NCBI RefSeq assembly: GCF_006717095.1
Contig: NZ_VFQE01000001.1
Location: forward strand, 2,480,001-2,544,000
Length of the DNA: 64,000 bases
Direction: 5' to 3'
Source: Blastococcus colisei
GTDB lineage: Bacteria; Actinomycetota; Actinomycetes; Mycobacteriales; Geodermatophilaceae
Made by a program: the position numbers and the translations under genes. Below are positions 46,845 to 52,009 of this stretch, in pieces. Position 1 is the first letter of the stretch. Every line of letters starts with the position of its first letter. Below the pieces are notes generated by a model that saw nothing but the letters and a program-made list of their open reading frames with translations, made no database searches and was not told the DNA's origin.

Positions 46845-49022
46845 ATGAGATGGGACGCGCAGCGGCTCGACCTCGAGGACCCGACCACGCTGCCCGGCAT
46901 GCCGAGCATCCGCGGACTGCTGCGCAGCGTCCAGGTGCCGGAGTTCCCCGGGCTGACGTTCCACGAGGTGCGCGCGAAGAGCGCCCTCAACCACGTGCCG
47001 GGCGAATCGGCCATGCCGTTCCCCTGGACGATCAATCCTTATCGGGGCTGCAGCCATTCCTGTGTGTACTGCATATCGGGGGATACGCAGGTTCTCATGG
47101 CCGACGGCAGCCAGCGACCCATTGCGGAGCTACGCGTGGGGGACCGCATCGTCGGCACCGAAAAGCGGGGCACATACCGCCACTACGTGATGACCGACGT
47201 TCTCGCGCACTGGTCCACGGTCAAACCGGCGCACCGGGTATCGCTGGCCGACGGAACGCAGATCGTCGCAAGCGGCGACCATCAATTCCTCACCGGTCGC
47301 GGATGGAAGCACGTCACCGGTTCGATGAGTGGTGCAGACCAGCGCCCCTATCTCACGACGAATGACAGCCTGCTCGGTTTCGGCAGGACCGTGGACACGC
47401 TCGCCGCATGTCACGAATACCGGCGCGGTTACCTGACCGGCATGGTCCGCGGTGACGCCGATCTCGGGGTCTACCGCTACGAGCGTCCGGGACGGGCGCC
47501 CGGGGACGTCCACCGGTTTCGGCTGGCCTTGGCCGACGTCGACGGGCTGCACCGCACGCGGGCCTACCTGGCGCAGGAGGGTGTCGTGACCGACTGGTTC
47601 GACTTCACCCTGGCTACCGAGAAGCGGCGCGCGATGACCGCCATCCGCACGTCCGCCGCAGCCAAGGTCGCTCGGATCCGCAGTCTGGTCGAATGGCCCC
47701 AGGACCCTGGGGAAGCGTGGCAGCGGGGCTTCCTCGCCGGCATCTTCGATGCGGAGGGATCCCGCAGCAAAGGCGTCCTGCGGATCAGCAACTCCGACGA
47801 CGAGATGCTCCGTCGGACGGAGAAGGCATTCGCGACGCTCGGCTTCGACGCCGTGCTGGAGGACCGGCGTCTGCCCGATCGCGTACGGAACGTCCGTCTT
47901 CGCGGCGGTCTACGGGAACACATGCGTTTCGCGCACCTCGTCGATCCGGCGATCCGGAGGAAGTGTTCCGTCGACGGCATCGCGGTCAAGAGCGACGCGG
48001 ATCTGCGAGTGGTCAGCATCCAGGCACTCGGCCTCGAGGTGCCGATGTTCGACATCACGACCGGTACGGGCGACTTCATCGCCAACGGGGTGATCAGCCA
48101 CAACTGCTTCGCTCGAAAGACGCATGAATGGCTCGAACTGGATTCCGGGCGGGACTTCGACACGCAGGTCGTGGTCAAGACGAATCTGGTCGACGTCCTC
48201 CGGAGGGAACTGGCCCGGCCGTCCTGGAAGCGCGAACACGTCGCCCTCGGGACGAACACCGACCCCTATCAGCGGGCCGAGGGGCGGTACCGGTTGATGC
48301 CCGGCGTCATCCGGGCGCTGGCAACTTCCGGGACGCCCTTCTCCATCCTGACCAAGGGCACGCTGCTGCGCCGGGACATCCCGCTGCTGGCCGAGGCGGC
48401 AGAGCGGGTCCCGCTCGGCTTGGGCGTCTCCATGGCGATCTGGGACGACGAGCTGCACGCCGGCCTGGAACCCGGTGTCCCGACGCCGCGGGCCCGCCTC
48501 GACCTGGTGAGAGCACTCGCCGATGCAGGTCTGCCCTGCGGGGTGTTCCTCGCTCCGGTGCTGCCAGGGCTGACGGACGGCGTGGTGGAGCTGGACGCCG
48601 CTCTGGAAGCCGTCGCCGCCGCCGGGGCCTCCGGCGTCACCGTCATCCCGCTGCACCTGCGTCCCGGTGCGCGGGAGTGGTTCATGGCCTGGCTGTCCCG
48701 GGAGCACCCCGAACTCGTCCCGCGCTACCAGCAGCTGTACGCGCGGCGGGCGTACGTGCCGGCCGACTACCGCACGTGGCTGGCTCAGCGCGTGGCGCCC
48801 CTGCTCGCGAAGCACGGCCTGGACCGGCAGAGCGGGGGAGCGGCGCGCGGAGCCGACCCGGCCGTGGCCAGCGGCGTCCCCGGTGACGCCGAGGTGGGGT
48901 TTCCGGACGGCAGCCTGCCGACCGGCGGCCTGCCCGGAGCCCGGCCCGGGAGCACGTCGCCGGTGCCCCCGGTGCGCGCAAGCGCTCCGGCCACAGCAGC
49001 AGAACAGCTTCCCCTCCTGTGA
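46845..49022 (+). CDS. Rv2578c-type radical SAM protein interrupted by an intein
   Basis: 725-aa precursor. The mature radical SAM protein (about 380 aa) is made of residues 1-75 plus 421-725. The 4Fe-4S motif CxxxCxxC is C69SHSC73VY followed by the Cys at the junction (CFARKTHEW). The intein occupies residues 76-420 and interrupts the motif before its third Cys, so no cluster can form until splicing. Downstream, TNTDPYQRAEG and VIPLHLRPG are typical of the Rv2578c family. The C-terminal 60 residues are Pro/Gly-rich. The reaction of the family is unknown to me. The Lrp-type gene ends 42 nt upstream. Confidence 0.93.
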   Translation: MRWDAQRLDLEDPTTLPGMPSIRGLLRSVQVPEFPGLTFHEVRAKSALNHVPGESAMPFPWTINPYRGCSHSCVYCISGDTQVLMADGSQRPIAELRVGDRIVGTEKRGTYRHYVMTDVLAHWSTVKPAHRVSLADGTQIVASGDHQFLTGRGWKHVTGSMSGADQRPYLTTNDSLLGFGRTVDTLAACHEYRRGYLTGMVRGDADLGVYRYERPGRAPGDVHRFRLALADVDGLHRTRAYLAQEGVVTDWFDFTLATEKRRAMTAIRTSAAAKVARIRSLVEWPQDPGEAWQRGFLAGIFDAEGSRSKGVLRISNSDDEMLRRTEKAFATLGFDAVLEDRRLPDRVRNVRLRGGLREHMRFAHLVDPAIRRKCSVDGIAVKSDADLRVVSIQALGLEVPMFDITTGTGDFIANGVISHNCFARKTHEWLELDSGRDFDTQVVVKTNLVDVLRRELARPSWKREHVALGTNTDPYQRAEGRYRLMPGVIRALATSGTPFSILTKGTLLRRDIPLLAEAAERVPLGLGVSMAIWDDELHAGLEPGVPTPRARLDLVRALADAGLPCGVFLAPVLPGLTDGVVELDAALEAVAAAGASGVTVIPLHLRPGAREWFMAWLSREHPELVPRYQQLYARRAYVPADYRTWLAQRVAPLLAKHGLDRQSGGAARGADPAVASGVPGDAEVGFPDGSLPTGGLPGARPGSTSPVPPVRASAPATAAEQLPLL
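47070..48104 (+). mobile_element. Intein with LAGLIDADG homing endonuclease
   Basis: 345 residues. Block A is CISGDTQVLMADGS with Cys1; block B has the TxxH-like SGDHQFLTG; the endonuclease carries two LAGLIDADG-type helices, GYLTGMVRGDADLG and GFLAGIFDAEGS; blocks F/G end in VPMFDITTGTGDFIANGVISHN, with terminal His-Asn and Cys as +1 extein residue. All residues needed for splicing are present. The acidic residues of both LAGLIDADG motifs are retained, so the endonuclease may still be active and mobile. Confidence 0.93.
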
Positions 49023-49023
49023 T

Positions 49024-49518
49024 CTACGGAGCGTCCCCATCGTCGGCGATGAACAGTCCACGGCGGCAGTCCTTGATCGTCGTGCCGGCGGGGAAGACCC
49101 GGCCGCTCATCGCGATGAAGATGCCGGCGGGAAGGAGCTGCAGGGCGCCGACGGCCAGACCCACGTTGAAGGATGCGTCGCTGTCGATCATCCGGGCCGG
49201 TTGCATGGCGCCGGTGAGCACGACGACCTTTCCGTGAACGCCCTGGAGGTGCGCTGCGGTGGTCGTCATCGAGTCGGTGCCGTGGGTGATGAGGACGTGT
49301 TCGGTGTCGGAGGTCTCGGCGCGGTGACGGATGAGGTCGCGGTCGTCGTCGTCGAGGTCGCGGCTGTCCTTGCGGCAGACGCTGTCGATGGTGACCTCGA
49401 GGTCGGTCCGAATCCGTTGGAGCAGGGTGCCGATCATCGGTGGTCCGGTGACCATCGTCCCCTGGAGGGAGTACTCGACATCGATGGTGCCGCCGGTCGT
49501 GATCACGTGCAGGCGCAT
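49024..49518 (-). CDS. Short asparaginase-domain protein
   Basis: 164 aa, only the N-terminal domain of the asparaginase/glutaminase family (normally about 330 aa). The catalytic threonines are present in TTGGTID and in ITHGTDSM, with the Lys of VVVLTGAMQP one strand on. The C-terminal domain, which completes the active site from the neighbouring subunit, is missing; comparable short proteins exist as I recall. The ATG overlaps the TGA of the upstream PLP-enzyme/RidA gene by one base, so the two are coupled. Activity is uncertain. Confidence 0.8.
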   Translation of the reverse strand: MRLHVITTGGTIDVEYSLQGTMVTGPPMIGTLLQRIRTDLEVTIDSVCRKDSRDLDDDDRDLIRHRAETSDTEHVLITHGTDSMTTTAAHLQGVHGKVVVLTGAMQPARMIDSDASFNVGLAVGALQLLPAGIFIAMSGRVFPAGTTIKDCRRGLFIADDGDAP

Positions 49519-51050
49519 CAGCCGGCCCGGGAGGCGATGACGTCGAGTTCGACCCGCGCACCGAAGGGAAGCTCGCCGACAGCGAAACAGGTGCGGGCCG
49601 GCAGGGGCTCGGGAAGGGTGGCCAGGTAGACCTCGTCCATTGCATGTCGGTCGGTCATGCTGGCGAGGTAGACGGTGATCTTGACGATGTCGGGGAACCC
49701 GAGGCCCGCCGTCGACAGGGTTGCGGCGAGGTTGGCGAAGGCCTGCCGGGTCTCGGCGAGGATGCCGCCGCGAACGATCTCGCCGTCGGCCACGCCGAGT
49801 TGACCGGAGACGAAGACGACGTCACCGGCGACGCGGAGCGGGCTGTAGGGGTGGGCGGCGTCGGAGAAGCGTTTGGGCGCGGACGGGGCAGTCGCGGTCA
49901 CGCTGGTTCCGGCCTCGCGCAGCGGCAGTTCGTCCTCGGTCACGCCGAACACCTGACCCATGGCAACGGCGGCCTTCAGGCCGGTGCCGGTCAGGACGAC
50001 CACGGTCGTCTCACCGGGGCGGATCGCCCCGCGGGCGGCGAAGACGTCGATCGCGGCGGCTGCCGACGCGCAGGTGGGTTCGGCGTAGAGGCCGATGCCG
50101 GCCAGGCGGCGGGTGGCGGCGACGATGTCCTCTTCGGGGATGGCGGCGGTGTCCCCGTCCGAGCGCCGGATCGCCTCGACGACCTCCGGTAGCCGGATCG
50201 GCGTCCTGATCGCGGTGCCTTCGGCGATCGTCGGTCCGAAGTCGACATCCGTGTGCCCCTGGAACGCCGCGTGGATCGGCGCGCACCGCTCGGGCTGAGC
50301 GACCAGCAGCCGGGGGAGGCGGTCGATGTGGCCGGCGGCGAGCAGCTCGCCGAAGCCGAGGTCGCAGCCCAGGACGATGCTGCCGGCTCCGGCCACGGTG
50401 ACGATCGCGTCGGGGGCGGAGAACCCGAGGTCCTCCCACAGCTCGTAGGCGAGGGTCTTCACGCCCTGCAGGAACAGGGGGTGCCAGTTGTGGCTCGCGT
50501 AGCAGGTGGTGGCGGCCTCGCGGACGGCCTGGGCGCCGGTGGCATCCCGGTCGCCGGGCACGAGGGCGACCTCGGCACCGTAGGCGCGGGCCTGCAGCAC
50601 CTTGGTTGGCGACGTCGATTCGGGGGCGAGGATGCGGGCGGCGATGCCGGCGGCGGCGCAGTAGCCGGCGACCGAGGAACCGCCGTTGCCGGAGCTGTCC
50701 TCGATGACGGCCTCGACGCCGACCTGGGACAGGGCCGAGATCATGACACTGGTGCCGCGGTCCTTGAAGCTGCCGGTGGGGTTGAACCACTCCAGCTTGA
50801 ACCGCACGTCCTGCTGACCCCAGCGCGCTGCGACCAGCGGGGTGCACCCCTCGCCGAGAGTCACCGGCGCGGCGATCTCGCCGGGGAGGGCCCCCCGATA
50901 GCGCCACAGCGACCGCTCGACGGTGTCGATCTGCGCTGGTCCGATGCCTGTCCTGGGCGTCATCGTGAGCGGAGCGCCGTCCTCGCCACGCCAGCGCACC
51001 GGGTCGTAGGTGTAGGTCCGACCCGACCGAGGGTCGAGGAGAGCGTCCAT
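49518..51050 (-). CDS. Threonine-synthase-like PLP enzyme fused to a RidA domain
   Basis: 510 aa. Residues 1-375 form a fold-type II PLP enzyme of the threonine synthase branch: FNPTGSFKDRG with the Schiff-base Lys96, SSGNGGSSVAGYCA as phosphate cup, and the C-terminal VVLTGTGLK. Residues about 390-510 are a complete RidA (YjgF) domain with HPYSPLRVAGDVVFVSGQ, the substrate-binding Arg486 (PARTC) and Glu501 (VELDVIA), equivalent to Arg105 and Glu120 of E. coli RidA. RidA hydrolyses reactive enamines such as 2-aminoacrylate released by PLP dehydratases. The first half therefore probably performs a beta- or beta,gamma-elimination; true threonine synthase cannot be excluded. Coupled to the asparaginase-like gene. 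Confidence 0.9.
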   Translation of the reverse strand: MDALLDPRSGRTYTYDPVRWRGEDGAPLTMTPRTGIGPAQIDTVERSLWRYRGALPGEIAAPVTLGEGCTPLVAARWGQQDVRFKLEWFNPTGSFKDRGTSVMISALSQVGVEAVIEDSSGNGGSSVAGYCAAAGIAARILAPESTSPTKVLQARAYGAEVALVPGDRDATGAQAVREAATTCYASHNWHPLFLQGVKTLAYELWEDLGFSAPDAIVTVAGAGSIVLGCDLGFGELLAAGHIDRLPRLLVAQPERCAPIHAAFQGHTDVDFGPTIAEGTAIRTPIRLPEVVEAIRRSDGDTAAIPEEDIVAATRRLAGIGLYAEPTCASAAAAIDVFAARGAIRPGETTVVVLTGTGLKAAVAMGQVFGVTEDELPLREAGTSVTATAPSAPKRFSDAAHPYSPLRVAGDVVFVSGQLGVADGEIVRGGILAETRQAFANLAATLSTAGLGFPDIVKITVYLASMTDRHAMDEVYLATLPEPLPARTCFAVGELPFGARVELDVIASRAG

Positions 51051-51162
51051 GGACGCCTTCCTATCATCGGCCGGACGAGCGGTTCACCGTCGACGGTCTG
51101 TGCGCGTCGGCACGATCACCGGCACTACCTCGGCGCTGTCCCGGGGCAGGCGCGGTCCAGGT

Positions 51163-51185
51163 GTCAGCCCGCCAGGCGGGCTGAC
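51163..51185 (-). terminator. Hairpin overlapping the stop codon of the unknown gene
   Basis: Perfect 10-bp stem (GTCAGCCCGC) with a 3-nt loop; the TGA stop at 51166-51164 is inside the stem. It separates this gene from the PLP-enzyme gene that follows on the same strand. Confidence 0.65.
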
Positions 51186-52009
51186 CGACCGGCTGCCCGT
51201 GCTGCGCGCACCACGCCCCGCGGCGAGACCGGCGGTGCCCCGGCGGCGAGGGCGAGACGCCGGTAGGAGTCGTAGGACAGCTCCCGGTACGCCACGGCCA
51301 GCTCCTCGGCCCACGCCTCGCGTGACGGGGCAGCGGTCGCCCGCAGGTGCTGCGCGGTCCGGACGGCGTGCTTGGTGAAGGTGGCTTGCAGCGCCTGGTT
51401 GGACAGCCGCCCGCCGATGCGCGAATCCAGTCCCGGACCGCGCCGCAGTGCGGGCAGCACCCAGGGGCTCTCCGCCAGCGCAGGGAAGCGCGAGCGCACC
51501 GACTCCCACGCGTGCCACGCGGTCGACGCACCCGAGAGCGACCACTCACCCTCGTCGGTCGACACGAGCAACCGCCGGCCACTCGGTCGCACCTGCTCGC
51601 GGCGCAGCGAGCGGAACGCCGCCACCGGCGCCGGCCAGCCGAGCGCGAGGGCGCACCAGGTCACCGATCGCAGATGCTCGGGGTCCTCGTTGCGGATCTG
51701 GGTCAGGGGGCGCAGGTCGAGCTCGGGCGGATCGGGCTCCGGTGTCGCGACCCGCGGCAGGGCCACACCGCCGTACCGGGCGACCTTGGTGTACAGCGCC
51801 ACCGTCGCCGGCTTCCAGCCCCGGGCCGCCGTCAGCGGCTCGAGCCCTGTCTCGCCGAGCTGATCCGGGCCGAGCCCGAGTTCCAAGGCGGCGTCGGCCA
51901 GCCGGCGCCACTGCGCCTCGTACCCCGGGGGCGCGTCCAGTCGGCGCCAGGCGCGCGCCGGGGGAGGGGCCGGCATGTCGGGCAGCGGCTGCTGCCATCC
52001 ACCTCGCAT
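51164..52009 (-). CDS. Protein of unknown function, faintly tyrosine-recombinase-like
   Basis: 281 aa, basic, no signal or membrane segment. Residues 110-165 (LRSVTWCALALGWPAPVAAFRSLRREQV...) look like the first helices of a tyrosine-recombinase catalytic domain, and the late segment ELSYDSYRRLALAAG could correspond to its end, but the Arg-His-x-x-Arg box is not clear. It could be a degenerate integrase or simply an alpha-helical actinobacterial protein. Leaderless ATG start; the promoter is interlaced with one arm of an inverted repeat. Confidence 0.55.
   Translation of the reverse strand: MRGGWQQPLPDMPAPPPARAWRRLDAPPGYEAQWRRLADAALELGLGPDQLGETGLEPLTAARGWKPATVALYTKVARYGGVALPRVATPEPDPPELDLRPLTQIRNEDPEHLRSVTWCALALGWPAPVAAFRSLRREQVRPSGRRLLVSTDEGEWSLSGASTAWHAWESVRSRFPALAESPWVLPALRRGPGLDSRIGGRLSNQALQATFTKHAVRTAQHLRATAAPSREAWAEELAVAYRELSYDSYRRLALAAGAPPVSPRGVVRAARAAGRSARLAG

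Follow-up and report, generated by a model that had tools for sequence, protein, structure and literature searches.

A threonine-synthase-like PLP enzyme fused to a Rid domain in a small, probably horizontally acquired operon of Blastococcus colisei

The window analyzed here, a stretch of 64,000 nucleotides of the Blastococcus colisei genome, carries on its minus strand, at 49518-51050, a single open reading frame (ORF) of 510 amino acids plus stop, which starts with ATG and has no internal stop codon. Two Pfam domains were found in it: PF00291 (PALP) at residues 63-355 (E 1.5e-65; 221.9 bits against a cut-off of 35) and PF01042 (Rid) at residues 397-506 (E 1.1e-27; 96.8 bits against a gathering cut-off of 27.3). 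Both matches are far beyond chance, and with two such domains in the frame, an accidental long ORF in GC-rich DNA was rejected. The original prediction, that one polypeptide combines a PLP enzyme with a Rid domain, was borne out by these data, and the residues that it had numbered were found at those positions, with K96 in the motif PTGSFKDRG, R486 in PARTC and E501 in RVELD. A structure model of the fusion was usable for approximately residues 30-365; pLDDT was below 50 over residues 365-510, and the model carries no information on the Rid half or on the arrangement of the domains. The parts of the gene and of the operon are listed in Table 1.

Table 1. Parts of the fusion gene and its operon (window positions).
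Feature	Position	Strand	Basis
PLP domain, PALP fold-type II, threonine-synthase-like, residues 1-368, Schiff-base Lys96	49947..51050	-	Pfam PF00291, 23-sequence alignment, Foldseek
Codon G369, site of the extra base, old PLP stop/regulator start overlap	49944..49946	-	Pairwise DNA alignments
Linker, residues 370-387, VTEDELPLREAGTSVTAT, N-terminal remnant of a YheO-like PAS_6/HTH_22 regulator	49890..49943	-	DNA alignment to L008, L130
Rid (imine deaminase-like) domain, residues 388-510; Y402, S415, R486, E501 kept; D472	49521..49889	-	PF01042, solved-Rid alignment
Short-chain (RrA-type) asparaginase, 164 aa	49024..49518	-	Pfam PF00710; best solved relatives 8up6, 8uoo
Operon-bearing stretch, probable horizontally acquired insertion	48944..51163	.	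blastn synteny vs G002, G012

Both its sequence and its fold place the PLP half closest to threonine synthases. The protein alone scored 125 bits to threonine synthase versus 50 bits to threonine dehydratase, while a 23-row profile, one row of which is the genome's own threonine synthase, scored 235 versus 100 bits. Foldseek ranks 1-17 were all threonine synthase, with target-normalized TM-scores of 0.80-0.85 (2d1f, 1uin, 1uim, 2zsj, 3aey and 6cgq), and the Schiff-base lysine was invariant in 23/23 aligned rows. Like threonine synthase (thrC; 2d1f, 1uim, 2zsj), the PLP half has a fold-type II PLP core, this lysine within its PTGSFKDRG motif and an S/T-GN loop. However, it scored under the cut-offs of all six threonine synthase models listed (best NF005035, 225.9 versus 301 bits) and missed TIGR00260 (117.5 versus 167.1 bits), a model that the genome's separate 433-aa threonine synthase, serving as a positive control, passed with 240.6 bits. 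The orthologue of the PLP half in a congener (genome G012) was likewise below the threonine synthase cut-offs. Scores under cut-off were also obtained with the dehydratase models (best among those listed NF006094, 85 versus 331 bits) and with the BhcB model NF045641 (60.6 versus 550 bits).

The family of the PLP half has the consensus YASHNWHPxF, whose Y, A, H, P and F positions each reach 90% conservation or more in the 23-row alignment. It also occurs in proteins of Haloterrigena, Priestia and, apart from the Ser, Selenomonas. At this place an NP-x-R motif is present in three solved threonine synthases, whereas the window protein has HNWHPxF there and, in addition, the appended Rid domain. 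The motif NSxNPxR, which we take to hold the substrate-phosphate-binding residues of threonine synthase, was absent from the PLP family; thrC types differ, and the exact motif was also missing from the genome's own thrC. Unlike this thrC and the Priestia homologue, the window PLP half has no N-terminal Cys pairs.

Aligned with solved Rid proteins, the C-terminal half kept the equivalents of TdcF Tyr17, Ser30, Arg105 and Glu120 and had Asp472 where TdcF has Asn88, all five of these TdcF residues being named as Rid signature residues in the available excerpts of PMC5979572. According to excerpts of PMC4433059, plant and Salmonella RidA lose nearly all imine hydrolysis when the Arg is changed, while replacing the equivalent of the Tyr or the Glu has little effect on the Salmonella protein; the same excerpts describe Rid proteins as typically trimeric, RidA genes as clustering with threonine dehydratase genes and Rid-Rid fusions in tandem. 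The domain thus shares its Pfam family and four of the signature residues with the RidA/TdcF/UK114 imine deaminases, and it differs from them in the Asp, in its attachment C-terminal to a PLP enzyme and in its score against the RidA subfamily model TIGR00004, which the isolated domain missed (87.6 bits against a cut-off of 106.25). It was the best TIGR00004 scorer among the genome's five PF01042 matches. The catalytic Arg was kept in 8/8 context-associated Rid rows aligned, a set that leaves out the broken Modestobacter copy described below (Pro at this place) and the fragments at locus L193, and in 1/3 other Rid proteins of the genome; a fourth, read separately by eye, appears to have it.

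The TGA of the fusion gene shares one base with the ATG of the asparaginase gene. The product of the latter matched the N-terminal asparaginase domain only, and its closest relative was RrA of Rhodospirillum rubrum, of which it keeps the equivalents of Thr16, Tyr21, Thr87-Asp88 and Lys158 in alignment. At the place of RrA Lys19 the window protein has Val14, whereas the short-chain asparaginases of genome G115 and of Streptomyces NBC_00846 have Lys. Since the K19A change in RrA leaves about 1% activity, as given in the available excerpts of PMC10949315, the window asparaginase may be weak or altered. Unlike RrA, it shares an operon with the PLP-Rid fusion.

The origin of the fusion can be followed in related loci. 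On a plasmid of Streptomyces sp. NBC_00846, the annotated gene order is PLP enzyme, PAS-domain regulator, RidA and asparaginase. Modestobacter sp. DSM 44400 (locus L006), which is 86% identical to the window in the PLP part, has the PLP gene followed by a frameshifted regulator, a broken Rid gene and an asparaginase gene; the breakage of regulator and Rid lies at L006:1340-2180, and the Rid copy has an in-frame stop and the Pro in place of the catalytic Arg. In Umezawaea (L008), the PLP stop codon and the start of the following regulator gene overlap; this regulator, which has PAS_6 (YheO-like) and HTH_22 domains, is intact (L008:7095-7712) and matches PF08348 and PF13309. DNA alignment to the Umezawaea locus and to Embleya (L130) identified the window linker, VTEDELPLREAGTSVTAT, as the first ~18 codons of the regulator, the remainder of which is gone, and the window frame enters Rid sequence just past the site of the former Rid start codon; the end of the remnant is good to a few codons, and the Modestobacter alignment put a short linker piece elsewhere. 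The linker as a designed tether was rejected, since the DNA alignment makes it the leftover N-terminus of a deleted regulator.

In pairwise DNA alignments, three relatives (L006, L008 and L130) had one base fewer than the window at the stop/start overlap, and by eye the ends of three more (L007, L191 and L200) also appear one base shorter. By these alignments, the window frame runs on across the junction only through a single additional base where stop and start once overlapped. Since the relatives are one base shorter and the regulator is missing, at least two changes are needed, the extra base and a deletion; comparing region lengths in L006 and L008 puts the latter at an estimated 0.4-0.6 kb. 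From an ancestral order of PLP, regulator, Rid and asparaginase, the extra base within the 4-base overlap would have cost the PLP gene its stop codon, and a frame-preserving deletion would have taken nearly the whole regulator together with the Rid start codon; the two enzymes were thus apparently joined because the intervening regulator gene was almost wholly deleted. In L007 and L200, where the regulator was undetected, only its start appears by eye to be left after the PLP gene, and regulator loss may therefore be recurrent. The junction also illustrates how enzymes can be joined stepwise, through loss of a stop codon at an overlap and deletion of an intervening gene whose leftover becomes the linker.

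No second PLP-Rid fusion was found among the matches listed for 146 relatives and 396 genomes of the phylum, nor, at an E threshold of 1e-45, in 112 family and 394 class genomes; these genome sets overlap and few candidates were scored per genome, so that a distant fusion could be missed. Among 72,556 plasmid records, two contained a single place that matched 80% or more of the fusion query. Plasmid match H7 was rejected as a fusion because it consists of two separate annotated genes, and match H3, aligned in one piece at 8-437, because it consists of a PLP gene and an opposite-strand DUF1877 gene. In the best 80 of 164 related contig places, retrieved by a search that finds only relatives sharing an exact peptide word, the Modestobacter locus alone matched both halves, as separate, partly broken ORFs, and besides it only L010 had any Rid match. 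With no second example in the sets searched, PLP-Rid fusion as a common architecture was rejected; the fusion is rare and probably recent. The predicted pairing of PALP and RidA domains therefore holds within one ORF, but in one genome only. The accompanying statement that no characterized enzyme of this architecture is known agrees with the open-licence literature, in which no description of a Rid domain fused to a PLP enzyme was found among the matches listed; a search of the same literature for the window PLP family found nothing.

We then considered whether the two halves are associated where they are separate genes. A PLP gene was present in 93 of the 94 loci examined, a sample made up mostly of Bradyrhizobium in which some loci end at contig ends; within 4.5 kb of it lay a Rid gene in 7/93 and a regulator in 20/93, with none of the partners sought in 71/93. 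Among 21 actinobacterial orthologues with context (23 loci minus the more distant homologues L197 and L198), the regulator was adjacent in nine, Rid in five and asparaginase in three; the five include the broken Modestobacter copy and the two-fragment Rid of L193, while a weak Rid match ~4 kb upstream in L201 was not counted. The congener G012 has a PLP, Rid and asparaginase cluster on another contig, with no regulator match. Selenomonas and Priestia have the order regulator, Rid, PLP, and Haloterrigena has PLP then Rid, upstream of which lies a gene belonging to the D-threonine-aldolase-like family. In G115, a window-type Rid (67% identity) and a short-chain asparaginase form one ORF (L116:8125-9000, minus strand), with no PLP gene in the 18 kb around it. 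The functional tie implied by the original prediction thus gains support from Rid genes beside PLP relatives in actinobacteria, Bacillota and a haloarchaeon, although Rid is absent near most loci; gene neighborhood supports a PLP-Rid partnership in which Rid stands beside a minority of the related PLP genes.

Selective constraint was assessed by pN/pS. Between the window and Modestobacter, the values were 0.19 (bootstrap 0.14-0.26) for the PLP part, 0.26 (0.16-0.40) for the Rid part and 0.39 (0.27-0.55) for the asparaginase; since the Modestobacter Rid copy is broken, perhaps recently, 0.26 is compatible with constraint on the window Rid but is no proof of it. The corresponding values against Streptomyces NBC_00846 were 0.64, 1.23 (0.96-1.62) and 0.76, and these carry no information on constraint because the comparison is saturated and the two Rid proteins are only 29% identical. 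This low identity points to more than one recruitment or replacement of Rid.

The genomic setting points to acquisition from elsewhere. Genomes G002 and G012 have synteny on either side of the operon and no DNA matching the operon-bearing stretch in blastn, the syntenic place being occupied by ~1.5 kb and ~0.2 kb of other DNA, respectively. The 2.2-kb operon is therefore a probable horizontally acquired insertion. PLP relatives at E 1e-45 or better were present in 6/112 genomes of the family including the window, five of them at 57% identity or more. Since the operon is missing from the syntenic place and the G012 cluster lies on another contig, the operon appears to be mobile on an evolutionary scale. 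A DNA search of 16 genomes of the genus with the junction DNA returned only short matches beyond the window.

What reaction the PLP half performs can be approached through its partners. The recurrence of Rid genes beside PLP relatives and the conservation of the Rid Arg make it plausible that the PLP half is an elimination enzyme, as originally predicted, while its nearness to threonine synthases, which perform a replacement reaction, counts against this. For neighbors of related PLP genes, the best NCBIfam matches were the iminosuccinate reductase BhcD (229 and 215 bits, cut-off 500) and, for another, the 3-hydroxyaspartate aldolase BhcC (117 bits, cut-off 690), scores that, lying under cut-off, indicate distant kinship only. 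An imine reductase, an imine hydrolase, a hydroxyaspartate-type aldolase and an asparaginase would suit a C4 amino acid deaminated via an imine, and elimination is favored on this ground; as for the substrate, our first guess would be C4 amino acids, for example aspartate or asparagine in 3-substituted form. The beta-hydroxyaspartate cycle (BhcB, BhcC, BhcD) likewise combines a PLP enzyme, an aldolase and an imine reductase, for which similar genes stand beside the PLP relatives. Unlike that cycle, the window operon has neither aldolase nor reductase gene, and Rid stands there instead.

Taken as a whole, the evidence leads us to favor, with modest confidence, a two-domain enzyme combining PLP-dependent elimination with Rid imine hydrolysis and made from the leading gene of a small catabolic operon that was gained by horizontal transfer. 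An ammonia-lyase-type elimination in the PLP half would release an enamine/imine, which the Rid half would hydrolyze to a keto acid and ammonia; a C4 substrate would give 2-aminofumarate/iminosuccinate or its amide, a pool that the short-chain asparaginase encoded next in the operon would supply or convert further. The ORF, its two domains, the regulator remnant, the gene order in relatives and the insertion are observed, whereas we infer the elimination chemistry, the substrate class and the activity of both halves in one bifunctional protein; channeling of the enamine, which the original prediction also drew from the fusion, would be a further, hypothetical property. Threonine synthases are dimers, and if the Rid part forms trimers, the fusion would need to assemble in multiples, for example three dimers with two trimers.

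Since the join rests on one base, a sequencing error stays a minor rival. The PLP gene would then end at the overlap, and the GTG of residue 370 would open a separate ORF of regulator stub plus Rid, coupled to it in translation but not fused. That the three aligned relatives, and three more by eye, lack a base at exactly this overlap fits such an error, as does the 4-base stop/start overlap of the ancestral arrangement. However, 21 of the 45 predicted window genes of at least 120 aa align to a congener without a break in frame at an identity of 75% or above, over 8,603 codons, the other 24 being uninformative in this check; second matches in another frame occurred only at lower identity and at 5' ends, where the gene caller probably chose starts too early. 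Moreover, a base-calling error would not account for the regulator, which was lost by a large deletion. The outcome foreseen as fatal to the fusion, two adjacent ORFs joined by an error, is thus weakened by the intact frames, although the junction does hang on a single base; an error at precisely that base is unlikely, and we consider this reading quite improbable. Were the base miscalled, Rid and the regulator remnant would still share an ORF with translational coupling to the PLP gene. Unlikely, too, but less so, is that the fusion gene is decaying and will in time disappear, its operon having lost the regulator and its Rid half being a passenger, as in Modestobacter sp. DSM 44400. There the regulator and Rid are both broken, in the window the regulator is nearly gone, L007 and L200 by eye retain only its start, Rid is in two fragments in L193, and the operon is patchy across the family. 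Against decay, all window parts are open, R486 and E501 are kept, and the Rid pN/pS against Modestobacter is 0.26 although one of the copies is broken.

The remaining rivals concern the reaction. The PLP half could be a true threonine synthase or another replacement enzyme, its Rid half mopping up occasional leakage of aminocrotonate or aminoacrylate. The closest fold and profile are indeed those of threonine synthases, but the failure against the six models listed, when the genome's own enzyme passes TIGR00260, and YASHNWHPxF in the place of NP-x-R make this the least probable of the readings weighed here. The fused enzyme might instead act on D-amino acids, a reading that we hold to be about as improbable as the sequencing error. 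It draws on the D-threonine-aldolase-like gene (PF14031/PF01168) in L011, on similar genes in L008 and eight Bradyrhizobium-type loci, and on the HTH_22/PAS_6 regulator beside PLP relatives, which presumably belongs to the family of DauR; nothing relevant linking DauR with RidA was found among the matches listed from the open-licence literature. Yet the aldolase family includes 3-hydroxyaspartate aldolase, the only NCBIfam match of the neighbor aldolase, and no D-threonine-aldolase-like gene was seen in the window operon.

Returning to the favored reading of a PLP elimination enzyme with its own Rid hydrolase, its broadest form is that of a new self-cleaning PLP lyase, threonine-synthase-like, active in C4 amino acid catabolism, equipped with its own imine deaminase and part of a recurrent, undescribed module; this form we regard as possible and put forward tentatively. 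If it is true, the module would consist of a YheO-like regulator, the PLP lyase and alternative partners, namely either a Rid hydrolase or a reductase resembling BhcD to deal with the imine, and a BhcC-like aldolase on the substrate side; Rid would have entered two fusions in this module, one with the lyase and one with the asparaginase. RidA is viewed as a free-standing catcher of leaked enamines, and a natural fusion offers a test of whether attachment lowers leakage. The operon also ties an unassigned threonine-synthase-like branch to imine chemistry, and probably to the catabolism of the aspartate family.

At three related loci (L008:7718-9707, L011:7751-8911 and L079:7801-8772), the PLP gene and regulator stand beside distant BhcC/BhcD relatives, the L008 aldolase being identified by similarity only; this suggests an undescribed variant of hydroxyaspartate-type metabolism. 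In the window itself, a 281-residue protein encoded at 51164-52009 (minus strand), adjoining the insertion, has no Pfam match and is 81-90% identical in two congeners. On the other side of the operon, a radical SAM gene at 46845-49022 (plus strand) contains an intein-like insert at about 47073-48100, in which LAGLIDADG_3 scored over its cut-off and the splicing and Hint domains below theirs; G002 and G012 have no matching DNA over much of this insert, in the case of G012 for ~1 kb.
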